A stretch of 41,559 nt of DNA from a virus. The stretch is taken from positions 1 through 41,559 of IMG/VR virus record IMGVR_UViG_3300025889_000256; one strand, given 5' to 3'. Below are positions 3,440 through 25,727 of the stretch, piece by piece. The position numbers were made by a program, and so were the translations under genes. Under the pieces are notes generated by a model. The model had not been told where the DNA came from and searched no databases. It saw only the letters and a list, made by a program, of their open reading frames with translations. How positions within the stretch are numbered: position 1 is the stretch's first letter; each line of letters starts with the position of its first letter.

Positions 3440-6400
3440 CTATGAAATTTTTCCTTTCATTCCCTTACTAATATTAAATGTTACCGCAATAGCATCATTT
3501 GGTGTTGTAAATGATGCCGCAGTTGACCCGGCTATAATTAGTTCAGTATTAGCGCCTAATATAACTCCATTCCCTATATCAGTAGCACCAGTTCCGATTT
3601 GATATTTAGTCCACGTTTTGTCATTCAAATCAAATACAGCAACAAATATATCACTACCTCCATATGAATTACCATCATCGGCGAAAATACCTGTGGTAGT
3701 TCCCACAATTGCAATTCTTCCATCTGGGATATAAACAGATGGTTTACCAATTGTATCTAGATTTTCGTTTTGTGTAGTTCCTATTTGATAAAATGTCCAC
3801 ACATCTGTGTCATAATTAAATAATGCAATCCCAATATCTGCCGCTCCTAAATTTGAACCGGCGAGGTCACCCGAAGTTTCAAATACTATAGCAAGTGTGT
3901 TTGGTATTGTATTATGAATATCATGCACATTTAATGCTCTATCTGCTAACCCAGACCCCGTAGTATAATACTCTGTTACAAATGTTTCTGGATTAATAAT
4001 CCCCAAGAACAAATCATAACCACCCACGGGAGTTCCACCCAAATCACCGGCAGTTCTACCAACAAACGCAACCTCCCCCCAATGTGAACTACCAGAAGTT
4101 GATATTTCGGTTAATGCATAAATTTCTTCATCAAATTCACCACCTCTTTGTAAAATAGTGAATGAATCTAAAGGTGTCATATTTGTTGCGGATGGGTCAT
4201 AAATTCCTAACATATAATCATATACACCCGTGTTTCCTTCATTAAGTTTAACAACATCACCGGATGTCTGGGCGGCAATCATTAATTTTCCGTAATTGCT
4301 GCCAGAGGTAAGTTCTATTATGTCATAACCAAAAATATTACCATCGTCGGCAATACCATCACCAGCAACACCCACTTGAGTCCACTGAACTAAATCATTG
4401 ATTGGGTTCAATTCTTCTATTTTATAACTTCCAGAATTTTTATATGTTTGTAAATCATTCAATTCCAATTTTCCAATAAACGCGTGGAATGTTTGACTTC
4501 CCTGATATACTTCTTTATGGAAACTACTACTAGCATATGTGTACACCACCGATGACGATATAGTAATATGATTTCCCGTGTCTGATGGGGTTGTTGATTC
4601 AGTAAATAAACCATTAGAATTCGTTGATGTTAGTGCGGAAGCGGAAGAATACCACATTGCCATTCCGGCATTTCCTTGATAATGATGATTTCCTGTTCCA
4701 AATCCATTCTTACAGAATCTAAATAATAGTGCTCTACGACCATATGTATGTGATTCTGACCATCCGGCCGCAATATAATTATCAGTAGTTACATCTATTT
4801 CTACTGCACCCAAACTTTCGGCACCCATATGACCAAGTGCGTTTATCCATTCTACATTTCCTGTGTGGTCAAGTGAAACCATAACACCGTCACCACCACC
4901 TTGATTTGAATTTCCAGAATCTGGTGTATATCCAACTGCGATTATGTGTCTGGATTCACTAGCGTATGTATATGGGGTTCCTGTTACGGCTTTTAGTAAG
5001 GACCCAGATATTGATGTTTTCCACAAATCTGATATTCCACCACTACCACTTATAACTTTCGTTACAAATCCATCATTTCCCTCTTGACCAACTACAATGT
5101 ATTCTGGTGTGGTTCCTGTATTTCTCATATCATTGGCTATAATTGAATTTGAACCACTTGTGTATGACCCCATCCAATTTAATGAGAACGAACTAGATAC
5201 ATCACCAACACCGAACGATGCAGTGCTATTATCTAAAATATTAATTGTTCCTTGCATTCCACTATGAAGAGCGCAGGCATAATATAATGTATCTGGCGTG
5301 TCCTCGCCAACAAAGAATTTTAATGGACCCGTCGTGGTGTATTGTATTACACCTTGATTCAACACATAACTTCCACTTCTGTGTAATGAATCTTCTTGAC
5401 TTCCACTATAAAGCGAACCCGTTCCTGTAGTTAGTGAGGTTTTAATATAAAATGGGTGATTAGATGTATTTACATTAAATGTATAGGTATTATTTCTATA
5501 TAATGTTAATGTTGGGTCCGTTTCATTTGTGAAACCACCTCCATTAAATACATAATTGTTTGTTCCACTATTAGTAATAGTATAAGTTACATCGTCTGTG
5601 TATTGAGTTCCTGCAAATGTAAATTTACCATCATCTGTAGTTTCTTGTTTTCTTACACGACTGACTCGTAAATTATTATATTTATGTTGTTCTGATATGT
5701 TACCATCTGTGTCCATGACCACAAATGTTGTATGACTTCCCGATAATGGTCCAGTATATACTACAGGAACCAACACCACATCGGTTTCATTATTCTTAAC
5801 AATAGCAATACTACTAGCATATTCATTATCAAATGAAGCAGACGGTGGAACTGTATTAGATAACAGAGCACTGGCCGTAACAGAATATCCCACACTTCCT
5901 ACTAACTTACTCCATCTAACCGACCCATCGGTATTTAATTTCATTACAACGGCGTTACTATAAGAATTACCAGAAATAGTTTGTCCTACTATATACGGAT
6001 ATCCAGATGAATCAATTGATATTCCATAAGCAGAACTTGTTGTATTATTTTTAATATTTCTTTGCCACTGTAAGTCAAAATTTTCGTCATATTTAGCCAC
6101 AACTATACTAGAACTTTCTATATGATTTCCCACATAATATTGTGCGCCACTAACATCAGTCACCATATCTACAAATTCAATTTTATTTGTTGTATCTAGT
6201 GTTTCTACTAATCCACGACCAATACCATGAATTAACAAGTTTTTATTTGGTGTTAAAATATCTTTTCCAAAACCAGTGAGATAAATTGAACCACTCAAAG
6301 TTGTTTCAACAACACCCGTGATATAGGTATCAAATCTCCCAGTAATTTCATAATATTCATTCTCAGAGGTTTCTCCGGGGTATACTATTGAAACTATTCC

Positions 6401-8050
6401 GTTGGTATATGATATATCTAATTCTAGGTCGACGGCGGCGGTGGTTCCTACATATAACTGTCTTCCGTCGTTTAATTCTATTACAGAATTAAATTGGTCA
6501 TTTCCATTAAATGAAATTTGTTTATTATCAAAAAATTTAGCACTATTTGGTTGGTACTGAAGAACCGGAGTATTTACATCAATTCCCGCGGGCTCGGTGT
6601 CGCTCGAACGTATAAAAGTTCCTGAATTTTTATCAAACGACACATATCCATTTTCAAGTGCATCTCTTAATATAAATGAGTTACTTCCACTTATATAGTC
6701 TAAATGTTTGTAACCATCAAACGGAATTTCTGGCGAGAATGAATATAGACCCGACCCAGAATATGACGTTCCAGAACCAGACTGTTCACCTGAAATCATT
6801 GTGTACATCTTGACCTCAGCTGCGTTAAATCCTAGTCCATGAACTCTCAAATGTGTATTCACATCATTTGTTACAACCTGTCCTCGGTCTTCCCAAGAAC
6901 CACTAACTAATTTATATAGACTAACTCCACCTCTAATAGAATCGGATACTATTGCATATAACTCATTGTTTGCAATTTCAAGATGACAGTCTGGTCTGAC
7001 CACAGACCCCGTTAATAAACTTGTTACTATTGGTTCTTCTGCCAAATTAGTTGACGAAACAAAATTCCATATATTTAAATTAAATTCAGACCCACTGTTA
7101 TAAATTACGGGGATGTAGAGATTACTCCCATCTGTTTTACCAGCACTCGCTCTAAATGGATATAAACTGGCCGAGCCGGGAGTTCTTGCTAGAAGTGGGT
7201 CGGCGAGGTCATATGTTCCGTGATGAACTTCTGCATTATATTGTTTTGTTGTATAGTTGTAAGTTCTTGAATATACATCCCAATCACTTCCATTCGCAGC
7301 TATATAGAAAAAGTGGAATCTATTAGACGCACCTGTAAGTATGCCTCCCATCATATAATTTCTATTTGTTGTGGAACCCAACTCCAAATCATTGTGGGAA
7401 TTGTGAGCGCCACCGATTGACGGTGTGTGAACTCGTCCTAAAACTGATATATAATTGGTAGCACCAGACTTAACATTGATATTAATCATATGAGCGTACT
7501 GTTCTACGCCGGACTCTCCTATTCTATCCTCAGCAGAAAAGGCTTGTCTTCCGTTATCAAATGGAAGATAAGAAGTTGGGTTGTGGGCGTGGTAATTATA
7601 ATAATCCCACTCAGTTGTTCCTTGTTCCAAATACAATCTATCCCAATAGAAGAAATCATCTGTATCTTGAGATACTGTTGCATTTTCTCCTAAATGTGCA
7701 AAGAACAACGCATCGGTTTCAGTTTGTTCTGTAATGTCATTAACACCAGAACCAATGTGAATAATATTTGAACCGTGGTATTTAACCCAATTATTTGAAC
7801 CACTTAAACTTTCAGATACAATCTGAATCGTTCCTTGAATTGTGTGAAAACCGTCGGCTCTAGACCCCGTTAATGGTGTGTCCCATTTATATGATTTAAC
7901 CAAACCAACGCCACTAGGTAGTTCATTTGTAGCGCTACTAGCAGAATAAATTAACCAATAACCAGCGTCTATAGCTCGTCCGGCCGGATTAGGTAAATAC
8001 CATTGATTATTATTTAAATCTACACTTCTGGTTAAATTAGTTATAGCCAT
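3440..8050 (-). CDS. Giant tail/fibre protein with beta-propeller repeats and an embedded cupredoxin-like domain (1536 aa)
   Basis: Long segments (about residues 610-820 and 950-1150) contain SBBP-like propeller blades, for example SAYGISIDSSGYPYIVGQT, VVMKLNTDGSVRWSKLVG and VSLDHTGNVEWINALG. More propeller-like WTKYQIGT / IVGTTAG repeats run to the C-terminus. Between blades, about residues 820-940, sits a cupredoxin-like domain: YTFNVNTSNHPFYIKT and LYYACALHSGMQGTI give His865, Cys926, His929 and Met932 in type-1 copper spacing. The N-terminal 450 residues look like a separate adhesin region (SADGFHTIQG, WDRLYLEQGTTEWDYYNYH). Only 3 nt separate it from the preceding gene. It is probably a host-contact tail protein; similar cupredoxin-like modules occur in marine phage structural proteins (from memory). 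Confidence 0.8.
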   Translation of the reverse strand: MAITNLTRSVDLNNNQWYLPNPAGRAIDAGYWLIYSASSATNELPSGVGLVKSYKWDTPLTGSRADGFHTIQGTIQIVSESLSGSNNWVKYHGSNIIHIGSGVNDITEQTETDALFFAHLGENATVSQDTDDFFYWDRLYLEQGTTEWDYYNYHAHNPTSYLPFDNGRQAFSAEDRIGESGVEQYAHMININVKSGATNYISVLGRVHTPSIGGAHNSHNDLELGSTTNRNYMMGGILTGASNRFHFFYIAANGSDWDVYSRTYNYTTKQYNAEVHHGTYDLADPLLARTPGSASLYPFRASAGKTDGSNLYIPVIYNSGSEFNLNIWNFVSSTNLAEEPIVTSLLTGSVVRPDCHLEIANNELYAIVSDSIRGGVSLYKLVSGSWEDRGQVVTNDVNTHLRVHGLGFNAAEVKMYTMISGEQSGSGTSYSGSGLYSFSPEIPFDGYKHLDYISGSNSFILRDALENGYVSFDKNSGTFIRSSDTEPAGIDVNTPVLQYQPNSAKFFDNKQISFNGNDQFNSVIELNDGRQLYVGTTAAVDLELDISYTNGIVSIVYPGETSENEYYEITGRFDTYITGVVETTLSGSIYLTGFGKDILTPNKNLLIHGIGRGLVETLDTTNKIEFVDMVTDVSGAQYYVGNHIESSSIVVAKYDENFDLQWQRNIKNNTTSSAYGISIDSSGYPYIVGQTISGNSYSNAVVMKLNTDGSVRWSKLVGSVGYSVTASALLSNTVPPSASFDNEYASSIAIVKNNETDVVLVPVVYTGPLSGSHTTFVVMDTDGNISEQHKYNNLRVSRVRKQETTDDGKFTFAGTQYTDDVTYTITNSGTNNYVFNGGGFTNETDPTLTLYRNNTYTFNVNTSNHPFYIKTSLTTGTGSLYSGSQEDSLHRSGSYVLNQGVIQYTTTGPLKFFVGEDTPDTLYYACALHSGMQGTINILDNSTASFGVGDVSSSFSLNWMGSYTSGSNSIIANDMRNTGTTPEYIVVGQEGNDGFVTKVISGSGGISDLWKTSISGSLLKAVTGTPYTYASESRHIIAVGYTPDSGNSNQGGGDGVMVSLDHTGNVEWINALGHMGAESLGAVEIDVTTDNYIAAGWSESHTYGRRALLFRFCKNGFGTGNHHYQGNAGMAMWYSSASALTSTNSNGLFTESTTPSDTGNHITISSSVVYTYASSSFHKEVYQGSQTFHAFIGKLELNDLQTYKNSGSYKIEELNPINDLVQWTQVGVAGDGIADDGNIFGYDIIELTSGSNYGKLMIAAQTSGDVVKLNEGNTGVYDYMLGIYDPSATNMTPLDSFTILQRGGEFDEEIYALTEISTSGSSHWGEVAFVGRTAGDLGGTPVGGYDLFLGIINPETFVTEYYTTGSGLADRALNVHDIHNTIPNTLAIVFETSGDLAGSNLGAADIGIALFNYDTDVWTFYQIGTTQNENLDTIGKPSVYIPDGRIAIVGTTTGIFADDGNSYGGSDIFVAVFDLNDKTWTKYQIGTGATDIGNGVILGANTELIIAGSTAASFTTPNDAIAVTFNISKGMKGKIS

Positions 8051-12427: not shown

Positions 12428-12435
12428 TATAATTA
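12428..12435 (-). promoter_or_regulatory. Variant promoter box TAATTATA before the chaperone gene
   Basis: The sense strand reads TAGATAATTATAATAATAAC, 31 nt before the ATG at 12396. It differs from the window consensus TAYTTATA at one position, so it is a weaker call. Confidence 0.4.
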
Positions 12436-15400
12436 TCTAGTTACTTTCAAAGAAATCGTTACTCTTGTAATTGTACTCACACTATCAACATTGAATCTTA
12501 GGGTATCCCCTGCGGTTATTGATGTTGTCCAACCCGTTAATGTTGAATCAGTAGATTTTGTTGCACTACTGATTGTTGGTGTTGCTGAAGCGGTTATACT
12601 ATCGACATCGGTTGGTGGATAATTAGCATAAGTATCTTTCCATATATCGACCACGATGCTTCCAGCTTGGTCCGCTAACATAGAAACTTCTGTGATAGTA
12701 CAACCGAATGGTATTTGTAAATCACCCTTTATTCCTGTTGTTATGGCGGAACCCCCACCATCAATTACATAAATAAGTGATGATGTTATTGTAGTAGTTA
12801 TTCCACTCAACCCACTTCCATCTCCTACAAACGAACCAGAATATGTTCCACTGGAAGTTACTGACCCATCTACATATACAGACCCCGTTACGACTAATCC
12901 TTCTGGGAAATTCACATATCCATCAAAATATGAAGCTGTATCGGCGGTGGCGGAAACTCCGGTCAGTCCAGAACCATCGCCATAAAAGGAACCAGTATAT
13001 CCACCAGATGCGGTAACATTACCAGTTATTGTTAAGGCCGTTCCATCAAACTGTAAATTGGATTCACCATTAATACTATCGGCACCAGTAGATGTTATAA
13101 TATAGTTATCTGTCCCATTAGTATATGTAGCGACGGCACCACCACTACCACCGGGTGCCCAAGATGCACTTATAGCAAACGATGAAGTTGTACTATATGA
13201 CGAACTTACTACACCTGTTACTTGAGAACCGTCTATCTGAGCCGAACTTGATAATGTTCCTGCGGGTAAAATAGCACTAACATCACCCGATGTTACAGTG
13301 CCAACGGTGGTAATATTTGCTTGAGTGAAATGTTCATCGGCACTAAAGTTTGTAGTTTGGTCATGGTCTATTTGAGACGAAGCCGACACCGTTCCAAGAC
13401 TGTTGATATATGTTAGAACATTTGAGTCAAAATTAGTGACTGTATCGGCATTTACTTGAGCACTTGAACTAAATACACCAACTGTATTAATATAATCTAA
13501 AGTGTCTGTGTCGGTATAATGTGTAAGGTCACTGATTTGACTTTCTGTTATTGTAATTTGTGCGGAACTTGAGACAGTTCCACTTGGTAAGATAGCGTTT
13601 ATATTACCACTGGTTACAGTTCCTACTGTAGTAATATTTGCTTGAGTGAAATGTTCATCAGCACTAAAGTTTGTAGTTTGGTCGTGGTCTATTTGAGATG
13701 AACTACTCACCAACCCATTTGGAACATTGGAAACGGAATCAAAATCAACTTGAGCACTAGAACTAAACACGCCAACTGTATTTATATAATCTAGAGTATC
13801 AGTATCTGTGTAATGGGTTAAATCACTAATTTGGGATTCGGTTATTGTTATTTGAGAGGAACTAGAAATGGCCCCCAAAGTATTAATATATGCCAGAACA
13901 TTAGAGTCAAAGTTGGTGACGGAATCTGCATTTACTTGTGCAGAACTACTTATGACACCCACCGAATTGATATAATCTAACGTATCGGTATCGGTATAGT
14001 GGGTTAGGTCACTGATTTGACTTTCTGTTATTGTAATTTGTGTCGAACTTGAGACAGTTCCACTTGGTAAGATAGCGTTTATATTACCAGACGTTACAGT
14101 ACCAAGAGTTGTAATATTCGCTTGGGTGAAATGTTCGTCTGCACTATAATTGGTTGTTTGGTCGTGGTCTATTTGACTAGAACTCGACACGGCTCCTAAA
14201 CTATTAATATAAGTTAGTACATTAGAGTCAAAATTGGTGACCGAATCTGCGTTTACTTGAGCACTTGAACTAAATACTCCCTTTGCATTCAACGAAGTTA
14301 AGGTTATTATTTCACTTTCGGAACCAAGTAACCCACCAATCCAATAATTTTCACTTACATCCCAGAGTAATGAACCAGTTTCGTTGGTACTCGTATCATT
14401 TACATAAATACCACCATCACCAGATGCATTATTGGCATTTAATGTGATAATTTGGTCACCGATATCTACTTGGGAACTTGAAATATAAGTTGTAGTTCCA
14501 TTAACAGTCAAATTTCCTGAAAGAGTAAGATTTGTAAACTGAGGACTGTCACCAGTTTGAAGTCCTGTATCTACATCGGTTTGAACGCCATTGATTGTGG
14601 CTCTAACTGTTCCCTGTGAAGGTGAAGTAAACGAAGATGCGCTTACAATTCCAGAAGGAACATTTTGTATTGACCCATAATCAACCTGAGTTGAGCTTGA
14701 GATAGCACCAAGACTGTTGATATATGTTAGAACATTTGAGTCAAAATTAGTGACTGTATCGGCATTTACTTGAGCACTTGAACTGAACACACCGACTGAG
14801 TTAATATAGTCCAACGTATCAGTATCAGTATAGTGGGTTAGGTCACTGATTTGACTTTCTGTTATAGTTACTTGAGCACTTGAACTGAATACACCTACTG
14901 TATTAATATAATCTAAGGTATCAGTATCGGTATAGTGCGTAAGGTCACTGATTTGACTTTCTGTTATAGTTATTTGTGCGGAACTTGAAACGGTGCCAGA
15001 TGGAAGAATTGCACTAACATCACCTGACGTTACAGTACCAACGGTAGTAATGTTTGCTTGAGTGAAATGTTCGTCTGCGCTATAATTGGTTGTTTGGTCA
15101 TGGTCTATTTGAGCGGAACTTGAAACGGTTCCACTAGGTAAGATAGCGTTAATATTACCAGACGTTACAGTTCCCACCGCGGTAATGTTTGCTTGAGTGA
15201 AATGTTCGTCTGCGCTATAATTGGTTGTTTGGTCGTGGTCTATTTGAATAGAACTTGATACAGTGCCCAAACTATTAATGTATGTAAGAACATTTGAATC
15301 AAAGTTGGTGACGGAATCTGCATTTACTTGTGCAGAACTACTAAAAACACCAACTGTATTAATATAATCTAAAGTGTCTGTGTCGGTATAATGTGTAAGG

Positions 15401-15900
15401 TCACTGATTTGAGATTCGGTTATTGTTATTTGGGTTGAACTACTTACAAGTCCTGAAGGAATGTTATTAAGACCGTCCCATTCACTGGTATTACTATAAG
15501 AAGATGTTAATGAATACGATGATGATACTATACTACCAAGTAATAGAGATGCAGTTGCCGCATACGATGAACTGACTACTCCCGTCAATCCACTACCATC
15601 ACCTGTGAATGTTCCATCAAACGACCCAGTTCTATCTAATGATATAGAGGCGGTTGTGGTGCCTGATACATCTAGTCCATCAGCAAAATTAAGTATTGTA
15701 GCAGTTCCGGTAGGAGTACCATCATCTCTTATTTGAACCCCAGTATCACCTTCTGCGGTAACACCAGTTAGGCCAGACCCGTCCCCCACAAATGAACCAT
15801 TAAATGAACCAAAACTAGACCCAGTAAATGAGCCTGAGGCATTTATATTGGTTATTGTAGCTTGGGATAAACTACCGGAATCTGTATAAAATATTGCCAT
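12433..15900 (-). CDS. Repeat-rich long tail fibre (1155 aa)
   Basis: The N-terminus carries two SF.GSF.GDGSGLTGV units (about residues 28-110) shared with the 2128-aa fibre. Residues ~140-880 are tandem 30-65-residue repeats built from QISDLTHYTDTDTLDYIN, VG[VT]FSSSAQV, NFDSNVLTYINSLG and DHDQTTNYSADEHFTQANIT. About residues 395-540 form a unique block (VRATINGVQTDVDTGLQTGD) nearly identical to one in the 2128-aa fibre. The last ~115 residues (from IYVIDGGGSAITTGIKGD) form a different beta-rich tip. The repeats are likely shaft and the tip receptor-binding; this is inference. It has its own promoter box and no recognised enzyme domain. Confidence 0.82.
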   Translation of the reverse strand: MAIFYTDSGSLSQATITNINASGSFTGSSFGSFNGSFVGDGSGLTGVTAEGDTGVQIRDDGTPTGTATILNFADGLDVSGTTTASISLDRTGSFDGTFTGDGSGLTGVVSSSYAATASLLLGSIVSSSYSLTSSYSNTSEWDGLNNIPSGLVSSSTQITITESQISDLTHYTDTDTLDYINTVGVFSSSAQVNADSVTNFDSNVLTYINSLGTVSSSIQIDHDQTTNYSADEHFTQANITAVGTVTSGNINAILPSGTVSSSAQIDHDQTTNYSADEHFTQANITTVGTVTSGDVSAILPSGTVSSSAQITITESQISDLTHYTDTDTLDYINTVGVFSSSAQVTITESQISDLTHYTDTDTLDYINSVGVFSSSAQVNADTVTNFDSNVLTYINSLGAISSSTQVDYGSIQNVPSGIVSASSFTSPSQGTVRATINGVQTDVDTGLQTGDSPQFTNLTLSGNLTVNGTTTYISSSQVDIGDQIITLNANNASGDGGIYVNDTSTNETGSLLWDVSENYWIGGLLGSESEIITLTSLNAKGVFSSSAQVNADSVTNFDSNVLTYINSLGAVSSSSQIDHDQTTNYSADEHFTQANITTLGTVTSGNINAILPSGTVSSSTQITITESQISDLTHYTDTDTLDYINSVGVISSSAQVNADSVTNFDSNVLAYINTLGAISSSSQITITESQISDLTHYTDTDTLDYINTVGVFSSSAQVDFDSVSNVPNGLVSSSSQIDHDQTTNFSADEHFTQANITTVGTVTSGNINAILPSGTVSSSAQITITESQISDLTHYTDTDTLDYINTVGVFSSSAQVNADTVTNFDSNVLTYINSLGTVSASSQIDHDQTTNFSADEHFTQANITTVGTVTSGDVSAILPAGTLSSSAQIDGSQVTGVVSSSYSTTSSFAISASWAPGGSGGAVATYTNGTDNYIITSTGADSINGESNLQFDGTALTITGNVTASGGYTGSFYGDGSGLTGVSATADTASYFDGYVNFPEGLVVTGSVYVDGSVTSSGTYSGSFVGDGSGLSGITTTITSSLIYVIDGGGSAITTGIKGDLQIPFGCTITEVSMLADQAGSIVVDIWKDTYANYPPTDVDSITASATPTISSATKSTDSTLTGWTTSITAGDTLRFNVDSVSTITRVTISLKVTR
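13240..15480 (-). repeat. Tandem coding repeats of the 1155-aa fibre shaft
   Basis: Roughly 2.2 kb is tiled by imperfect in-frame repeats encoding ITITESQISDL / NFDSNVLTYIN / DHDQTTN segments. Two long stretches at 13525-13609 and 14005-14089 are almost base-identical and lie exactly 480 bp (160 codons) apart. Confidence 0.85.
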
Positions 15901-15927
15901 AATCTTTCTACATTAGATTGTTGTATA

Positions 15928-15935
15928 TATAAATA
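15928..15935 (-). promoter_or_regulatory. Putative late promoter box TATTTATA before the 1155-aa fibre
   Basis: The sense strand reads GGTTATTTATATATACAAC, 27 nt before the ATG at 15900, in the 41-nt gap between the two giant fibre genes. Confidence 0.65.
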
Positions 15936-15941
15936 ACCATT

Positions 15942-18900
15942 TTATTGTGTTTCCCCATATGCGGTTGCGGTCCAATAAGTATTACCCGATAACGCCTGAG
16001 CTGCGTTTGAATTTACAGTAAATCCACTTGTTCCTTTTGATTGAATTGTCCAAGCTCTTGAATCTTCGCCAGTTACAACAACCGCATAATTTGTATCACC
16101 AAATGCAGTTGAGAATGTAACAGTGGCGGTTCGTGGATTTCCTGTAAATGAAGTATTTGCAATTGAACCGGCTTTTGTAACCAAACCACTTCCACCAGTA
16201 GAAGCATATGATGCACTAACCACACCTGTTACTTGAGAACCATCTCCTGTAAATGAACCAGTAAACGAACCAGTGAATGGAGCGGATAAAGTTGTAAATT
16301 GTGTTGAACTGGATACTATACCAGACGGAACATTTTGGATAGTTCCATAATCAACCTGTGCACTTGAACTGAATACACCAACTGAATTAATATAGTCCAA
16401 GGTATCGGTATCAGTGTAATGTGTAAGGTCACTGATTTGACTTTCAGTTATTGTTATTTGTGAAGAACTGGAGATGGCACCAAGACTATTAATGTAAGTT
16501 AGAACATTAGAGTCAAAGTTAGTAACTGAATCTGCGTTTACTTGAGCACTTGAACTGAATACTCCCTTTGCGTTTAAAGAACTTAGAGTTATTACTTCAC
16601 TTTCAGAACCAAGTAATCCCGCAATCCAGTAATTTTCACTTACATCCCAAAGTAATGAGCCAGTTTCATTAGTGCTGGTATCATTAACGTATATACCTCC
16701 GTCTCCAGATGCATTGTTGGCATTTAGTGTGATGATTTGGTCACCAATATCTACCTGAGAACTAGAAATATAGGTTGTTGTTCCGTTGACCGTAAGATTT
16801 CCAGACAATGTAAGGTTTGTAAATTGAGGACTATCACCTGTTTGTAGTCCAGTGTCTACATCAGTTTGGACACCATTGATTGTAGCTCTGACCGTTCCTT
16901 GTGATGGTGAAGTAAATGAAGATGCACTTACAATTCCACTTGGGACATTTTGTATTGAGTCATAATCTACTTGTGTTGAACTTGAGATAGCACCTAAACT
17001 GTTAATATAAGTTAGAACATTTGAATCAAAGTTGGTGACTGTATCTGCATTTACTTGAGCACTTGAACTAAAGACGCCTACCGTATTGATATAATCTAAA
17101 GTATCCGTATCAGTATAATGTGTAAGGTCACTGATTTGGCTTTCGGTAATTGTTATTTGAGTAGAGCTACTTACTAAACCAGACGGTATATTATTTAATC
17201 CTGACCACTCGCTTGTGTTGCTATATGATGATGTTTCTGCATATGAAGATGAAGAAACATTATCTACTGTTAATTGGAATGTTCCACCACCACCCTTTAA
17301 GAAAGCAATTGTATCGTCTGTTATGGAAGCGGTGTATATTGCCATAACATCTGTAGCAAATCCAGCGGTGGAAGAATATGAAGAACTTAATGCGTATGAT
17401 GAACTGACCACACCTGTTATTTGAGAACCGTCACCATAGAACCCAGATGCAGTCACATCTCCACTCGTTACAACATCACCATAGAATTGTGCATTTCTAC
17501 TAGAGCTAACATATAGACCATAATTACCTTGACCGTCTGCAATAATGATTGTGTTACTCAATTCACTTGGAAGACCAGTTACGTTAGCACCTAAGATTGT
17601 ATTATAACTTCCTGTTACAATACCTCTACCAGAATTATAACCAAGTACGGTATTGTTAGAGTGGGTGGTTAAATCTGCAAGGTCGTAAAGTGCTTGATAA
17701 CCAATTGCGGTATTATTATTTCCCATACTGTTGAATAAAGCAGTATATGAAACTGCAACATTTCTGCTACCAGAAACATTGCGATACAACGTAAAATCAC
17801 CAATTGCGGTATTATTATTACCAATTACATTTGCGGTTAACGAATTAAGACCGACCGCCGTGTTAGCTGTTCCGGTTGTATTACTATCCAGAGCAAAAGC
17901 ACCAACAGAAATATTAACACCTGTTGTGTTACTTACTTGTGAATTATAACCAATAGCAATTCCATAACTTCCTGTTATCCTTTTTAACGTATTTGCCCCA
18001 AGTGCTACATTTCCAGAAGATGAACCACTTGCGTTTTGCATTGCGGCATAACCGATTGCCGTGTTGTATGCATTTATATTGTTTTCACAGTCCCAATTTT
18101 GAAGTGCCGCCACACCAATTGCAGTATTATAACTACCATTCCCATTTCTAAGTGCGGATGAACCAATTGCAATATTGTTAAATCCATCTGTATTATTTTG
18201 TAATGATTGGTATCCAATAGAGACGTTATTAGCACCAGTTGTATTATTTAGTAATGATTGGTAACCGACCGTGGTATTTGTGGATATATTACCACCACCC
18301 CTACCCGCGGTTAAGGAGTTGATTAAGGAATCATTAGATGAGGTTACAGAAGATGCGGTTATGTTTCCTTGAACGTGAAGTTTATCAGAGGGAGTTATAG
18401 TACCGATACCGACGTTGCCGGAACCACTGACAAAAAATGCATTTGGAGCGAAATTTGAATAGGTATGTAATAATGGTTCGGAGTCTGACCCAGAAACAGC
18501 TAAACGTGAAGTCATTGAGGTATTATTCAAGGAAACTCTAGAATTGTTATCAATTACAAATGATGGGGTTCCTTTATAAGATACAGCGAATCTATTACCC
18601 AATCCCGACACATCTTGAACAGGCATACCAACATAATATTGTGCAACTCCTCCTTGGGAGAAATTAACTGTTGTTGATTTTCCAGCATCGGTATCAATTC
18701 TTATAGTTGAACGATTATCGGGTCTATATAAATCTATTCCATAAGTTGAAGTTTGAAGAATATCTACACCACCACTGACATACAATGAACCTGTGAATTC
18801 GTGTATATCGTCAAGGGTATCACCAAACTTGGTTGACCCACTTTCGTAGATAATAGACGAAGAAACGAACTCAGTATGAAATTCTTGTGCGGTTAGAATT

Positions 18901-21900
18901 CCAGTTACAGTTAAGTCACCGTCTATATTTACAGATTGAGTTAATGGATTGACATATGAGGCAGTTTCAGAACTGACCACACCTGTGATAGAAGCGCCAT
19001 CTACATAGGATGCAGTTACAGCATATGATGAACTGACCACACCTGTTACTTGAGAACCGTCACCAATAAAGGCACTAGCGGTTACATCACCACTTGTTAC
19101 AACATCGCCATAGAATTGTGCATTTCTGCTAGAGCTAATGTATAGTCCATAGTTTCCATCACCATCAGAAATAATGATTGTATTACTCAATTCAGTTGGA
19201 AGACCAGTTACGTTAGCACCTAAGATTGTATTATAACTTCCTGTTACGATACCACCACCGGAATTCCAACCAACCACTGTATTAGCGGAAACGGTATTTA
19301 TATTTGCTAGATTTGTTAACGTTTGACTACCTATAGCGGTGTTATTACTACCAGAAACATTATTTAATAAGGCTTGATGTCCCACCACGGTATTATCATT
19401 ACCAATTGTGCTATTATAATTTGCATCTCTACCAATAGCAATATTATTATTGCCTTTTGTATTATCATAAAGTGCATTTATACCAATCGCAACATTAAAA
19501 CCTCCGGTTGTATTATATCGTAACGCGTTGAGGCCAAGTGCTGTATTATAAAATCCGGTTGTATTATTTTGTAATGCGTAACGACCAATAGCAATGTTTC
19601 CATATCCCGTTGTATTAGCGTTTAGATTGCTTGTACCAAATGATACTCCACCGGCACTTTCTTTAATATTTGTCAAAGGACCAACGTATATACCATCGGA
19701 ACCAGTTAGATATATTGAGCCAGTAATTTTTACATCTTGGACTAATGGATTGACATATGAGGCAGTTTCAGAACTGACCACACCTGTGATAGAAGCGCCA
19801 TCTACATAGGATGCAGTTACAGCATATGAGGAACTGACCACACCTGTTAAACCACTACCATCACCACTGAATGAACCTGTGAATGAACCTGTTCTATTTA
19901 ATGATATGGATGCGGTTGATGATGCAAAAGTAGCATCTATTCCATCAACAAAGTCTAGTATTTGTGCAGTACCTTGTATAGCGCCGTCATCTCTTATCTC
20001 AACACCACTACCCACACCAGTAACACCCGTCAATCCACTACCGTCGCCACTGAATGACCCACTGAATGACCCTGTATTTATTTGAACCGAACTAGATACT
20101 AGTCCAGATGGTATATTTGTAATATCATTCCAATCATTTGACCCTGCGTTTTCTGCATATGAGGCGGTAACAGCATATGAGGAACTTACTATGCCTGTTA
20201 TTTGTGTTCCGTCTCCATTAAAAGCACTAGCGGTTATATTTCCAGAGGCATCAATATTTCCTGATATGCCCAATTCGGAACCATCAAATATAAAGTTTGG
20301 TTCTGCCGTTAAAGTACCATCTGCATCAGAAGTTAAAATTCTATTAACACCATCGGTAGCAATAACTTCTGAAATGTCAAGGTTTAATGTAGTTGCATCG
20401 GCTACAGTAAGACCAGAACCGACTGTAATTTCTGTTAAATCAATAGATAATGTGTGTGATATATTTTCACCAGAAGTTGCTCCAGTAGAACTTATACCCG
20501 TTCCGGCAGTAATACTATTAACAAAATCACCCGTAGTATCGGTTGCCAATGTAACAGAATTCGCCGTAACTCCTGTTGCGGTTACATTTTGTATTTGAGA
20601 ACCGTCACCAACAAATGATATAGCGTGAACAGAACCACTAATTCCCAAACCTCCGCTAACTATTAACGCGCCAGTTGATATTGAAGTTGCACTAGTTGTA
20701 TTGGTTATGATTATTTTATTAGTAGTAGTATTACCTAAATCAGTTATGTCTTGTAAATCTTGTAATGTTGGTGCCGGTTCATATGTTGGGTCACTCTGTA
20801 GAACCCATTGACCAACACTAGCACTAACATAATAAATGTATGTTTTTCCTGTGGTATCATCATACCATAGATAATTTTCAGACGGCGTTGGAGACGAACC
20901 ACTAGATATTATATTGGAAAAACTTCCATTAAATGACCCAGTAAAAGACCCCGTATTAATTTGAACGGAACTTGACACCAATCCAGATGGTTTTCCAGAT
21001 ATATCATCCCAAGTGGCTGCGGCACCAGATACATAGGAGGCGGTAACGGCGTAAGAAGAACTGACCACACCTGTTACTTGAGAACCGTCACCAATAAAGG
21101 CACTTGCAGTAATGTCACCAACTGTGGTTAAAGAACCACTGTGTATGAACACATCACCGACCGAATCAATTGTTAGTTTTTTTGTTGCATTGGTTACAAA
21201 CTCTACTGTATCATTAGAAGGAAACCAAATTCCGGTATCAGTGTCATTCCAATGCGCTATACTTGGTAACGCCGAACCAGAGGGAGTGGTATGGCCAACA
21301 ACAATTTGTCCTGCGTTATTTAAAACTAATGTATAACTTTTATCTTGAACCCCCATCCTCAACACCGGATTAGTTATTTGTGAATTGGCATCAGCGTGTA
21401 TTACAAATTGACTATTAAATGCCGTCCCTAACCTCGTTAAAAATGGTTCATCGTCCCAAATTTTAAGCTGACTATATCCACCATAAAGTTCTAAGATTCC
21501 GTCTCCTGTCGGGCCGCCGTCAGAACTGGAAACCAGTAACGCTCCCGATATAATCATATATTGGTTGAGCGGGTTTACATATGAAGCGGTTTCGGAACTG
21601 ACCACATCAGTTAAACCACTACCATCACCAGTGAATGAACCACTAAATGAACCTGTTCTGTTCAGTGATATTGATGCGGTGGAATCGGTTACAGTCGCGT
21701 CTATGCCGTCTACAAAATCTATAATTTGTACAGCACCAAGAATACTTCCATCATCTCTAATATCAACACCAGTACCAATTGCAGTTACGCCTGTTAGACC
21801 AGAACCGTCACCAACAAATGTCCCGTCAAATAACCCACTAAAAGAACCTGTATTTATTTGCGACGAACTGGACACCAATCCAGATGGAACATTTTGTATT

Positions 21901-22328
21901 GAGTCGTAGTCAACCTGTGCACTTGAACTAAAGACACCTACTGTATTGATATAATCTAGAGTATCGGAATCCGTATAATGAGGAGTTAAATCACTGATTT
22001 GACTTTCGGTAATTGTTATTTGAGTAGAACTGGATACCAACCCGTCCGGTTTTCCAGATATGTCATCCCAAGTTGACGCGGCACCAGATACATAAGACGC
22101 TGTAGTAGCGTATGAAGAACTAACTGCACTACCAGCACTATTAGCATAACTAGCAGACTGTGCGTAATCTACAAATACACTGGTTGCTCTGGTTATTGTG
22201 GGGGTATCAAACGTTACAACGTGATATTCATCAACAGGTTGTATTTTTACTACATAATCTGACCTTGGTGTTATGGTTACTCGTAGGTCAGGTATATCTA
22301 AGGTGATACCATCGGGTAATGACGCCAT
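15942..22328 (-). CDS. Giant mosaic tail fibre with YadA-head-like repeats (2128 aa)
   Basis: The N-terminal ~60 residues (PDGITLDIPDLRVTITPRSD) are unique and probably attach to the virion. The rest is a mosaic. SYAVTASYV / GDGSGLTGV linkers recur throughout. Two blocks of YadA-head-like repeats (about residues 895-1065 and 1330-1610) carry NNT.G..N.AIG..AL. units. A GNVGIGT..PSDKLHV motif (about 1310) is typical of marine fibre shafts. A QISDLTHYTDTDTLDYIN block near residues 1720-2000 is shared with the 1155-aa fibre. The final ~85 residues (GNPRTATVTFSTAF, NYAVVVTGED, GFTVNSNAAQ) form a known fibre-tip fold. GAGG precedes the ATG; the gene follows the 111-aa gene after 5 nt. It is a probable main host-range determinant. 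Confidence 0.85.
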   Translation of the reverse strand: MASLPDGITLDIPDLRVTITPRSDYVVKIQPVDEYHVVTFDTPTITRATSVFVDYAQSASYANSAGSAVSSSYATTASYVSGAASTWDDISGKPDGLVSSSTQITITESQISDLTPHYTDSDTLDYINTVGVFSSSAQVDYDSIQNVPSGLVSSSSQINTGSFSGLFDGTFVGDGSGLTGVTAIGTGVDIRDDGSILGAVQIIDFVDGIDATVTDSTASISLNRTGSFSGSFTGDGSGLTDVVSSETASYVNPLNQYMIISGALLVSSSDGGPTGDGILELYGGYSQLKIWDDEPFLTRLGTAFNSQFVIHADANSQITNPVLRMGVQDKSYTLVLNNAGQIVVGHTTPSGSALPSIAHWNDTDTGIWFPSNDTVEFVTNATKKLTIDSVGDVFIHSGSLTTVGDITASAFIGDGSQVTGVVSSSYAVTASYVSGAAATWDDISGKPSGLVSSSVQINTGSFTGSFNGSFSNIISSGSSPTPSENYLWYDDTTGKTYIYYVSASVGQWVLQSDPTYEPAPTLQDLQDITDLGNTTTNKIIITNTTSATSISTGALIVSGGLGISGSVHAISFVGDGSQIQNVTATGVTANSVTLATDTTGDFVNSITAGTGISSTGATSGENISHTLSIDLTEITVGSGLTVADATTLNLDISEVIATDGVNRILTSDADGTLTAEPNFIFDGSELGISGNIDASGNITASAFNGDGTQITGIVSSSYAVTASYAENAGSNDWNDITNIPSGLVSSSVQINTGSFSGSFSGDGSGLTGVTGVGSGVEIRDDGAIQGTAQILDFVDGIDATFASSTASISLNRTGSFTGSFSGDGSGLTGVVSSSYAVTASYVDGASITGVVSSETASYVNPLVQDVKITGSIYLTGSDGIYVGPLTNIKESAGGVSFGTSNLNANTTGYGNIAIGRYALQNNTTGFYNTALGLNALRYNTTGGFNVAIGINALYDNTKGNNNIAIGRDANYNSTIGNDNTVVGHQALLNNVSGSNNTAIGSQTLTNLANINTVSANTVVGWNSGGGIVTGSYNTILGANVTGLPTELSNTIIISDGDGNYGLYISSSRNAQFYGDVVTSGDVTASAFIGDGSQVTGVVSSSYAVTASYVDGASITGVVSSETASYVNPLTQSVNIDGDLTVTGILTAQEFHTEFVSSSIIYESGSTKFGDTLDDIHEFTGSLYVSGGVDILQTSTYGIDLYRPDNRSTIRIDTDAGKSTTVNFSQGGVAQYYVGMPVQDVSGLGNRFAVSYKGTPSFVIDNNSRVSLNNTSMTSRLAVSGSDSEPLLHTYSNFAPNAFFVSGSGNVGIGTITPSDKLHVQGNITASSVTSSNDSLINSLTAGRGGGNISTNTTVGYQSLLNNTTGANNVSIGYQSLQNNTDGFNNIAIGSSALRNGNGSYNTAIGVAALQNWDCENNINAYNTAIGYAAMQNASGSSSGNVALGANTLKRITGSYGIAIGYNSQVSNTTGVNISVGAFALDSNTTGTANTAVGLNSLTANVIGNNNTAIGDFTLYRNVSGSRNVAVSYTALFNSMGNNNTAIGYQALYDLADLTTHSNNTVLGYNSGRGIVTGSYNTILGANVTGLPSELSNTIIIADGQGNYGLYVSSSRNAQFYGDVVTSGDVTASGFYGDGSQITGVVSSSYALSSSYSSTAGFATDVMAIYTASITDDTIAFLKGGGGTFQLTVDNVSSSSYAETSSYSNTSEWSGLNNIPSGLVSSSTQITITESQISDLTHYTDTDTLDYINTVGVFSSSAQVNADTVTNFDSNVLTYINSLGAISSSTQVDYDSIQNVPSGIVSASSFTSPSQGTVRATINGVQTDVDTGLQTGDSPQFTNLTLSGNLTVNGTTTYISSSQVDIGDQIITLNANNASGDGGIYVNDTSTNETGSLLWDVSENYWIAGLLGSESEVITLSSLNAKGVFSSSAQVNADSVTNFDSNVLTYINSLGAISSSSQITITESQISDLTHYTDTDTLDYINSVGVFSSSAQVDYGTIQNVPSGIVSSSTQFTTLSAPFTGSFTGSFTGDGSQVTGVVSASYASTGGSGLVTKAGSIANTSFTGNPRTATVTFSTAFGDTNYAVVVTGEDSRAWTIQSKGTSGFTVNSNAAQALSGNTYWTATAYGETQ
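16260..17170 (-). repeat. Fibre module shared with the 1155-aa fibre
   Basis: This part of the 2128-aa gene encodes nearly the same protein as about 14278-14710 and flanking repeats of the 1155-aa gene. The best-aligned segment is 16561-16990. In a 100-base stretch compared by eye I counted about 15 mismatches, mostly at third codon positions, while the encoded protein is almost unchanged. Confidence 0.75.
17450..18330 (-). repeat. YadA-head-like repeat block 2 of the giant fibre
   Basis: Repeats of about 14-16 codons encode the consensus N.T.IG..AL.N..G. In trimeric autotransporter heads such repeats make a left-handed beta-roll. A 48-bp segment at 17571-17618 is base-identical to 19200-19247 in block 1, 1629 bp (543 codons) away. 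Confidence 0.8.
18942..19047 (-). repeat. 106-bp direct repeat, copy A, within the giant fibre
   Basis: It matches 19743-19848 with a single mismatch by eye. The copies are 801 bp apart, exactly 267 codons, so recombination between them would keep the reading frame. Confidence 0.88.
19130..19640 (-). repeat. YadA-head-like repeat block 1 of the giant fibre
   Basis: The encoded units include GYGNIAIGRYALQNNTTG and FNVAIGINALYDNTKG, with the same 14-16-residue spacing as block 2. The sequence at the left end (19200-19247) is identical in DNA to part of block 2. Confidence 0.8.
19743..19848 (-). repeat. 106-bp direct repeat, copy B, within the giant fibre
   Basis: This is the partner of 18942-19047, with one mismatch. 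It encodes the linker ETASYVNP / VDGASITGVVSS segment that separates modules. Confidence 0.88.
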
Positions 22329-22781: not shown

Positions 22782-23270
22782 TTAGTAGTTTAAGATACAA
22801 TAATCTGGTTGGATTGTTAGTGTAATATTCATTGGTTGGTCTTCGTCCCAATTCATATCACCAAAATTGGCTTCGGTAATCTGACAACCCTTAAGAATCC
22901 ATTCTTCAACTTTATCTCCAACTGGTCCAAGAACATTGAATGTCAAATCTTTCTTATAGAAATCTGCATATCCATCACGACCAGTTACAGATTCGTGGTG
23001 GAGACGGACCCACTCCATAACAGATTGTGCGGCAGATGGAACGATTGGGTCATGCAATGTCATCTGGACGGCTCCCCATACAGTACGACCCTTTACATAT
23101 CTTTGAACATTGATATGATTTAAAGCTCTTGCCTCTTGTGTTAATCTTGGTCTTTGCATCCCCTTAATAACATAAGCTGGTAGTCCATCCATATACATGA
23201 TGAATCTATTTTGCATCTTAGGCTCAAACGCCTTAAAGAATAGTTCCTGTTCCTGAACCAAGTTTGCCAT
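22782..23270 (-). CDS. 19: Tail tube protein gp19
   Basis: At 162 aa it matches T4 gp19 (163 aa). It forms the inner tube of the contractile tail, through which DNA passes. Family features include the N-terminal NRFIMYMDGLPAYVIKGMQRP segment (the strand pair that starts the tube beta-barrel), VWGAVQMTLHDPIVPSAAQ, and the C-terminal GCQITEANFGDMNWDEDQPMN followed by ITLTIQPDYC. It sits directly downstream of the sheath gene, as in T4, but here has its own TATTTATA box and GGAG site. It ends at the strong terminator, which would give high, discrete expression for a protein needed in over a hundred copies. Confidence 0.92.
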   Translation of the reverse strand: MANLVQEQELFFKAFEPKMQNRFIMYMDGLPAYVIKGMQRPRLTQEARALNHINVQRYVKGRTVWGAVQMTLHDPIVPSAAQSVMEWVRLHHESVTGRDGYADFYKKDLTFNVLGPVGDKVEEWILKGCQITEANFGDMNWDEDQPMNITLTIQPDYCILNY

Positions 23271-23342: not shown

Positions 23343-25727
23343 TTATTCAGGGAATGTTGCGCCTGTTGGTAAGATGTTGAAGTCAAGGATAATGAACTCA
23401 GCAGTTCTGGTTGGTTGTAGATAAATCTGTCCGACCAACTGGTTTCTATCAATGACATCTGGTGTATTGTTACTTTCGTCCATGACCACACGGAAGGCGT
23501 ATAGCCCTTGTCTTTCCTGCACACTTGAAAGGTAAGGATTGACCAAGTTTAGGAATCTGTTACGAGTTGCTTCTGTGTTTTGTTCAAACAGTAGGTATCT
23601 TGAACTTGATGCGATATACTTCTTAAGTGCGATTAAGAGACGACGAACATTGATTCTGTCAAGAGCACTTGGTCTTGTCTGTAGAGTCTTCTGTCCGAAG
23701 GCAACGATACCTTGACCGGGGAACTGTGCGATTGGGTTAACTTTGTTCTCGTATAGTTCGTCACGGTTTGTTCTATTAAGTCTTGTCTTAACACCACTGG
23801 CTCCTGCAATACCACCTCTGTTTAGACCAGCGGGAGCGAACCACTCAGCAGACACACTATCACTGTAAGCGAATGTCTCTGGTAGAACGACAGAGGGTGG
23901 TGCCCAGATAAACTTGTTTGTATTGGTATTTAGAACTCTTACCCAAGGGAACCAACCGGCTGCATAACTTGTATCAAGTAGTGCGGCAGTTGATGTAGCA
24001 GTTGCGATACTAGCACCGTAACTTGCTAAGTCCATGATGTAGAAACAATCTTGTCTGTCTTCACAGATGTCAATTGCGTATTGGGTAATGTATGGATGTT
24101 GTTCGTGGTTAACACCGGGGATGACCAGTAGGTTCATATCATAGGCTTCTGGATTCTTGAGTGAGTCAAGAGCTTTCTTGAACGCTCTTGCACCTTCTGC
24201 GGCAGAAGTACTAATGTCAAATCCTTGGGTGTTTGTTGAAACAATGTCAGCACCCATTGCTCTTAGTCGGTTTGGTTCGAATCCATCGAATCCACCTTGC
24301 ATTGGGACTGTAAATTTACGATATGTGATGTGTGCAGAGGAACTGATACTCAAGTTAGCACTCGAAACTTCTCCACTGGCAACATCCTCTAATGAGAATT
24401 CTGTTGAATTTGTATTTGAACCACTGGTTGCGACATATCCCACTGTGGCCGCTCCATCTGGTAGTGGGTTTAAGAAACTCCAGTTTGTATGATTTGTTTC
24501 GGTATAATCAAATCCGTAGAACTTCTTAGAATCTCTGACAGCTCCCGTCTTGTATCCACTGATAACTGAACCAGATGTCCAAGCTGTGGTTACAACTTGT
24601 GCTCTGACGGATGTTTCATCCCCTTCAATCTTGAATGGTGCGTATAGAGCGGCGAATCCATATGGTAATGTTGTTTCTGGAACAGTTCCGGCAACAAGGT
24701 CATCACTTAGTTCAACTCTGATGAATTGGCTCTTGTTTGGGAAATCACCGACATATAGGTATTCTTCAGAAACAGAATCATATGTTGAAACACTGTTACC
24801 AATTCTTCTACCGATATAGTCAGAACTATTTGGGTCTAATGTTAGGTTATCCCATTGTTCAAGAATTTCCGATTTTGTATCTGTATCGGTTGCCTTTCTC
24901 ACCAACAATGAGAATGTTCCAAATTGACCTTCGACTGTTCTATACTTAATACCTTGAATTGAAATCTTGATATCACGGTTACTATTTGACCCATCAGCGA
25001 GAGTATGGACTTTAAATAGGTCATATTTTGAACCACCGATTGTTTGTGAACGAATCCAAGGAGTTGACGCATTTGAATATTCTTTAGTGGCAGAAGTACT
25101 AAAATCTAAGAATCCAGAGGAAGTTACTAATGAAACTTCAGTTAAGCTCACACCACCCTTGTCTGGGTCAATAGCTGATGGGAAATAGGCGTAGGTATAT
25201 GCCGGAGCAGACCCACTTGTCAATGGTGAAACTCCGATACTATTAATAATATTATCACTACTAGATCCACTTGGTGAAACAGCTGAATATTCAATTGAAC
25301 CATTAGATCCTGTCAATCCAATTGTTAATGAATTTGTTCCACTAGCATTGGCACCAGTTAATTTAACACCTGCGATAGTTGGGTGGAAAATAGCAAGAAC
25401 TTTTTCACCACCAGAACCACTAGCAATTAATCTAGCAGAGGTGAAGGTCCCACCACTATATCCATCTAAACCAAGAACACGAACAACTGTTGCTGAACCA
25501 GCTTCTTGTAAGTAATTCTGGACTGTATATCCTAAATAGCTATATTCGTCCGCGGTTCCAAATCTATTCTCAAACTCTTGTTGACTGTTAACCACCACTG
25601 GAACGAATGCTGGTCCCTTTTGGGATACACCAACAAACGCACCACCAATGTCAGCCACACCCTGAGCTAAGAAAGATTGATCTCTCTCGCGGGTAAATAC
25701 GCCTGGGCTAACTACGCGCTCTGCCAT
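23343..25727 (-). CDS. 18: Tail sheath protein gp18
   Basis: This contractile sheath subunit is 794 aa against 659 in T4. The N-terminus VVSPGVFTRERDQSFLAQGV followed by GGAFVGVSQKGPAF is the conserved sheath start. The middle (about residues 100-460) is a Ser/Gly-rich beta region that probably forms the exposed protrusion domains and accounts for the extra length. The C-terminal ~300 residues hold the conserved core: MNLLVIPGV, GWFPWVRVLNTN, WFAPAGLNRGG, RPSALDRINVRRLLIALKKY, and a last strand region FIILDFNILPTGATFPE. It follows the 80-aa gene by 13 nt and probably shares its promoter. G/C-ending codons look more frequent here than in the fibre genes. Confidence 0.95.
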   Translation of the reverse strand: MAERVVSPGVFTRERDQSFLAQGVADIGGAFVGVSQKGPAFVPVVVNSQQEFENRFGTADEYSYLGYTVQNYLQEAGSATVVRVLGLDGYSGGTFTSARLIASGSGGEKVLAIFHPTIAGVKLTGANASGTNSLTIGLTGSNGSIEYSAVSPSGSSSDNIINSIGVSPLTSGSAPAYTYAYFPSAIDPDKGGVSLTEVSLVTSSGFLDFSTSATKEYSNASTPWIRSQTIGGSKYDLFKVHTLADGSNSNRDIKISIQGIKYRTVEGQFGTFSLLVRKATDTDTKSEILEQWDNLTLDPNSSDYIGRRIGNSVSTYDSVSEEYLYVGDFPNKSQFIRVELSDDLVAGTVPETTLPYGFAALYAPFKIEGDETSVRAQVVTTAWTSGSVISGYKTGAVRDSKKFYGFDYTETNHTNWSFLNPLPDGAATVGYVATSGSNTNSTEFSLEDVASGEVSSANLSISSSAHITYRKFTVPMQGGFDGFEPNRLRAMGADIVSTNTQGFDISTSAAEGARAFKKALDSLKNPEAYDMNLLVIPGVNHEQHPYITQYAIDICEDRQDCFYIMDLASYGASIATATSTAALLDTSYAAGWFPWVRVLNTNTNKFIWAPPSVVLPETFAYSDSVSAEWFAPAGLNRGGIAGASGVKTRLNRTNRDELYENKVNPIAQFPGQGIVAFGQKTLQTRPSALDRINVRRLLIALKKYIASSSRYLLFEQNTEATRNRFLNLVNPYLSSVQERQGLYAFRVVMDESNNTPDVIDRNQLVGQIYLQPTRTAEFIILDFNILPTGATFPE

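Follow-up and report, generated by a model that had tools for sequence, protein, structure and literature searches.

The locus and its tail-region protein

The window, by which we mean the whole stretch of DNA that was analysed, is a virus record of 41,559 bases (IMG/VR class) from an uncultured phage, and its gene order and PHROG matches place it in the head and tail region of a T4-like genome. The genes assigned in this way are followed in the list below by the gene under study, an intact open reading frame for which orthologues exist.

39625-41211: terminase
36858-38663: portal
30376-31911: major capsid protein
23343-25727: sheath
22782-23270: tube
3440-8050, minus strand: gene for a 1536-residue tail-region protein bearing a cupredoxin domain

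PHROG matches place long fibre-type genes and fibre-assembly proteins after the tube gene, and the gene for the 1536-residue protein lies downstream of the fibre genes. Full-length or nearly full-length orthologues of this protein were found in the loci L001, L002, L006, L147 and L148, and as judged from gene position, gene order and relatives the protein is probably located on the virion. Note that the capsid protein shares 52% identity with its counterpart in Flavobacterium phage immuto and 47% with the one in Microcystis phage Mel-JY01. Two very long fibre-type proteins of 1155 and 2128 residues, encoded at 12433-22328, contain recurring SSSTQITITESQISDL and GSFTGDGSGLTGV stretches. Neither RNA families nor tRNAs were detected in the window.

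The features of the 1536-residue protein are given below, where copies with the complete H-C-H-M set are called intact and copies lacking both histidines ligand-less.

5636-6181, minus strand: blade-like repeats before the cassette, residues ~624-805 (four-stranded repeats in the model, moderate pLDDT)
5228-5590, minus strand: cupredoxin-like cassette, residues 821-941 (profile match 6.7e-36; AlphaFold2 with Foldseek and VIA; missing in orthologue L147)
5456-5458, minus strand: His865, first predicted metal ligand (H in 83/83 intact and 0/27 ligand-less copies)
5273-5275, minus strand: Cys926, predicted thiolate ligand and only Cys of the domain
5264-5266, minus strand: His929, predicted ligand (position; ligand counts across copies)
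5255-5257, minus strand: Met932, predicted axial ligand
4715-5143, minus strand: blade-like repeats after the cassette, residues ~970-1112 (model, low confidence)
3455-4663, minus strand: C-terminal beta-propeller, residues ~1130-1532 (VIA match to CylK with Z 28.2 and rmsd 2.8 over 304 residues)

Fold and predicted metal ligands of the domain

The initial annotation had proposed a cupredoxin-like domain at 5230-5590, residues ~820-940, in nearly exact agreement with the extent found here, and the profile search returned a single copy in the window. Its four ligand positions are confirmed by the codons of the open reading frame: NHPFYIKT starts at residue 864, which makes the histidine residue 865, and CALHSGM starts at residue 926. 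The ligand order of a type-1 copper site, His865 followed by Cys926-x2-His929-x2-Met932, is thus complete. Amicyanin, rusticyanin and plastocyanin share with the domain the fold and the order His, Cys-His-Met, and the exact C-x2-H-x2-M spacing is that of amicyanin, as the annotation had noted. A chance motif is ruled out, since the surrounding 120 or so residues belong to a widespread family with members in phages, viral contigs and bacteria or archaea. The GC content, inspected for signs of a recent foreign insertion, is 0.33 in the domain and 0.37 across the gene.

AlphaFold2, supplied with residues 805-950 and 55 relatives, yielded a confident beta-sandwich with a mean pLDDT of 77.5, values of 92-96 in the blocks that hold strands and ligands, and more than 90 for the ligands and almost every strand. 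Low values occur only at the two termini and in a single loop, which most relatives have in a shorter form than the window copy. The first histidine directly follows one strand and C-x2-H-x2-M lies in the loop preceding the last strand (in model numbering, strand E117-121, ligands 122, 125 and 128, strand E129-135), a predicted ligand topology that fits a cupredoxin site. In the PDB, Foldseek ranked cupredoxins first, namely nitrite reductase, rusticyanin, AcoP and plastocyanin, with multicopper oxidases next. With VIA, a DALI-like structure aligner, the domain superimposed on residues 24-137 of 2dv6, the N-terminal domain of Hyphomicrobium nitrite reductase, with a Z score of 11.6 and an rmsd of 2.8 over 98 residues, and on rusticyanin with a Z score of 10.6 and an rmsd of 2.3 over 95 residues. 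The predicted fold is therefore the one that the annotation had called for.

By sequence alone the link to cupredoxins is marginal, but it points in the same direction as the structure. A profile of 19 relatives matched mostly copper proteins in the PDB, with a best single-domain i-Evalue of 0.012, and in the nitrite reductase chain 2vmj the C-x2-H-x2-M of the enzyme was aligned to that of the domain. A five-sequence profile gave weak matches, and a broader one (A4) had none at E 0.01. The window copy did not match PF00127 (Copper-bind) at E 1, and eight of the 19 relatives did so weakly (best 2e-4). Counted by matching relatives, the nearest Pfam model is PF25489 (At5g54830-like; 9/19, best 1.1e-6), whose curated cut-off is not reached, the window copy scoring E 0.012 and 16 bits against 27. 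PHROG_677, annotated as 'baseplate wedge tail fiber connector', aligns to the whole domain with E 1.1e-23 at profile positions 307-410 of 412, so that its C-terminal 105 positions correspond to the domain of the window. As the N-terminal part of PHROG_677 was left unmatched, the 1536-residue protein (P0001) does not qualify as a gp9 protein. Among giant viruses, the small 'beta-sandwich' proteins A0A481Z6J5 of Pithovirus LCPAC302 (E ~1e-8) and A0A481YVH3 of Marseillevirus LCMAC201 (E ~1e-7) in BFVD also match the domain model.

The best match among solved folds, the N-terminal cupredoxin of the three-domain copper nitrite reductase from Hyphomicrobium denitrificans (2dv6, 6tfd, 6tfo), differs in being part of an enzyme with catalytic copper; the identity is 22%, and the phage domain has a proline after its first histidine. 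This His-Pro pair occurs in 83/83 intact copies and in 74% of the ligand-less ones. Many blue-copper proteins have an asparagine at this place. Amicyanin, rusticyanin and plastocyanin are free periplasmic electron carriers, whereas the present domain belongs to a viral tail-region protein and has natural ligand-less branches. In cellular proteins, type-1 sites whose loop is of the short amicyanin type serve electron transfer, and by this likeness the site might, in the course of infection, pass electrons or handle reactive oxygen at the cell surface. We consider such a redox role very improbable, as the window holds no partner protein, second copper centre or catalytic copper site, the neighbouring propeller resembles CylK in fold only, and homologous modules occupy unrelated places in tails. 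Cyanophages also carry plastocyanin (petE), a separate soluble electron carrier derived from the host and encoded by a metabolic gene (PMC3037559). It shares with the domain the cupredoxin superfamily and carriage by cyanophages, but is no domain of a structural protein, and a host-derived soluble plastocyanin is ruled out for the window because the domain belongs to a large protein of structural type.

A mobile cassette in tail proteins

The annotation had the domain inserted between SBBP-like propeller blades. The propeller setting holds, while SBBP repeats as such are undetectable in the window protein, where none exceeds the Pfam cut-off and the best Pfam matches have E 0.024 and 0.15; in the flank of orthologues the repeat does exceed it, with 23.7 bits in L147 against a cut-off of 20.5 and 25 bits in L001. 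The part flanking the cassette is poorly modelled (overall pTM 0.41), yet four-stranded repeats are visible. Insertion of the cassette into a propeller protein is thus well supported, and the exact insertion loop is probable.

Orthologues had to be aligned piecewise, since the position of the cassette differs between them. In L147, which is 60% identical over 616 aligned residues, the site is empty: its residues 1-282 and 284-890 align to window residues 511-816 and 939-1535, respectively, and no cassette was found elsewhere in the part of the gene on its contig (window residue 511 onward). L001, L002 and L006 are also without a cassette at the window site and carry it in another loop, after window residue ~1160. 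The identical proteins L148 and L149, from two assemblies, have one cassette between window residues 328 and 345 and a second, circularly permuted one near window residues 1316-1325 (residues 1413-1534 of their own). In the latter, the C-terminal half with C-x2-H-x2-M stands ahead of the N-terminal half with HPFWIQT, all four ligands are kept, and plain propeller sequence follows on both sides. The empty site in a close orthologue and the movement from loop to loop speak against the cassette being indispensable to the propeller. As these sequence comparisons indicate, the domain is a mobile cassette that has changed places, both from one tail protein to another and among the loops of a single protein. 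A separate arrangement was seen in L061, L067, L073, L101 and some 30 similar loci, where at residues ~160-365 one cupredoxin domain is nested in another, inserted just before the position of the first ligand histidine, and neither has the full ligand set.

Members of the family were found in 301 phage records, nearly all of cyanophages, as well as in 41 loci of bacteria or archaea and in viral contigs, where they account for at least 326 stretches. All six isolated phages that were examined, P-SSM5, P-SSM2, P-SCSP2, P-TIM68, MA01 and S-SSM5, have H-C-H-M. The domain follows a collagen-like stretch in P-SSM5, and in S-SSM5 it forms the end of the fibre connector gp9, which starts with the T4 gp9/10 N-domain (T4_gp9_10_N) and retains all four ligands in its cupredoxin part. 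Note that in PHROG_677 and the cyanophage gp9 proteins the domain is terminal, after that N-domain, while in the window it interrupts a propeller protein. In Flavobacteria and other bacteria the proteins that carry it are secreted or are lipoproteins, and some also have a CHRD domain. The bacterial and archaeal contigs L106-L146 encode such secreted or lipoprotein relatives, several with the CHRD domain upstream, from which the phage module may have originated.

Ig-like domains likewise serve phages as surface modules that are mobile and dispensable and that occur in structural proteins of various kinds. The present module resembles them in mobility and differs in being a cupredoxin; we know of no metal site in an Ig-like domain of phages. 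While cupredoxins as such are well known, the module sits unlabelled within PHROG_677. In the open-licence literature we found no published description of a blue-copper-type site in a tail protein, and no paper that brings cupredoxin and tail fibre together, or cupredoxin, virion and bacteriophage.

Ligand conservation and possible role of the module

Since the patterns of the first scan and of the genome scan contain ligand residues, we relied on a profile with masked ligand columns and on a second viral scan whose patterns hold no ligand residue. Among the 111 non-redundant copies recovered with the masked profile, both histidines are kept in 84 and both are lost in 27, and single loss does not occur. 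The copies with histidines comprise 83 with H-C-H-M and one with H-C-H-G. Where the histidines are gone, the cysteine is also absent in 19 copies and kept in eight (F-C-Q-M), while the methionine is present in 22 of the 27. As it is often kept where the other ligands are gone, the methionine may also serve the fold. Residues G31, F36, Y87 and G97 of the profile are conserved to 100% in the ligand-less copies, in which both histidines fall to 0 and the cysteine to 30%. In 76 of the 83 intact copies the cysteine is the only one of the domain, and for this reason a disulfide is ruled out as the cause of its conservation. The annotation had asked whether homologues freely lose their ligands, and they do not, the histidine pair being kept or lost together in 111/111 copies. 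One exception, outside this filtered set, is a short partial copy with H-C-N-M (L023, residues 809-866). Extra partial copies in L019 and L021 (residues ~160-240) have HPLMFST followed by C-x2-H-x2-Q and, on sequence, could be sites with a glutamine in place of the axial methionine.

In a tree calculated with the ligand columns left out, which has many weak forks and in which the clade of 22 copies is counted as one event, the ligand state changed at least four times, with losses in at least three places. The lineages without histidines are this one whole clade and two others, and as they persist in this state the module can do without the metal. The cleanest case of paired loss is L026 (1557 residues), where H-C-H-M stands at the same place as S-S-Y-M or S-S-Y-Q in orthologues of 65-68% identity over that length, so that the changes H to S, C to S and H to Y occur jointly. 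In the ligand-less orthologue L044 (residues 502-605) the methionine is a glutamine as well (S-S-Y-Q).

Loss of the ligands as a set with retention of the fold is the pattern expected of a metal site that is selected as a unit. Because the ligands are lost in pairs while the fold is kept, we propose that the intact copies are likely to bind metal, for which copper is the most likely candidate. The conserved residues might alternatively serve only the fold or a protein contact, in a metal-free, Ig-like beta-sandwich decoration. The many ligand-less copies that persist with an intact fold, the behaviour of the domain as a promiscuous Ig-like module and the frequent retention of methionine without the histidines are all in line with this explanation. 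We nevertheless hold it to be rather unlikely, as no non-redundant copy changes one histidine without the other, fold residues at other positions are retained, and a lone cysteine beside two histidines and a methionine would be costly to keep without metal. In addition, 39/39 non-redundant cellular copies retain the ligand set, a count biased to intact sites by scan patterns that included ligand residues.

Metal binding might also serve as bait or key, if the loaded domain were recognised by a copper or metal-chelate receptor in the host outer membrane. There is precedent for metal in phage tails, in that the text of PMC11705849 on tail-fibre iron describes, citing Bartual 2010 and Bonnain 2016, iron on HxH motifs at the tip of T4 gp37 and an iron-receptor hypothesis, the 'Ferrojan horse', of which this would be the copper version. 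The cassette also resides in adhesin-type proteins, where it varies in place and presence. That text deals with iron and HxH motifs, however, and we found no copper proposal in the open-licence literature; no receptor is known, and the ligand-less branches retain the domain at the same place. By analogy with iron, then, a bait function is conceivable but unlikely.

The reading that we favour, and regard as reasonably probable when its parts are taken jointly, is that of a cupredoxin with a complete type-1 ligand set, carried as a mobile cassette and acting as a copper-binding accessory surface module. The domain would take up copper after the virion exits the reducing cytoplasm, and the metal would lock the exposed loops of the beta-sandwich. 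As a dispensable accessory it could stabilise or decorate the adhesin, and contact with the surface of the host is possible; aquatic phages would shuffle the cassette between tail proteins much as other phages use Ig-like domains. The initial annotation had regarded the site as a single odd survivor. Its ligands are indeed retained, but that view was too narrow for a widespread mobile module with predicted metal-competent and metal-less branches. A more far-reaching version is possible, if doubtful: a dedicated transposable copper domain spread across adhesins, fibre connectors and propeller loops, in permuted and nested form too, would make virions copper proteins, its occupancy would tune adhesin stability or host recognition, and lineages would switch between metal-bound and metal-free states.

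The conservation pattern suggests that some phage tails hold a bound metal ion, most likely copper. If copper is bound, some abundant ocean phages would hold this trace metal in a high-affinity site of the tail. This would matter for the stability of virions, for their attachment to hosts and for the copper chemistry of the sea, and copper would join iron in the debate over metals in phage tails. Orthologues with and without the ligands occur naturally and provide ready-made pairs for comparison, and the hopping, permutation and nesting of the cassette offer a model of how adhesins are built from mobile domains.
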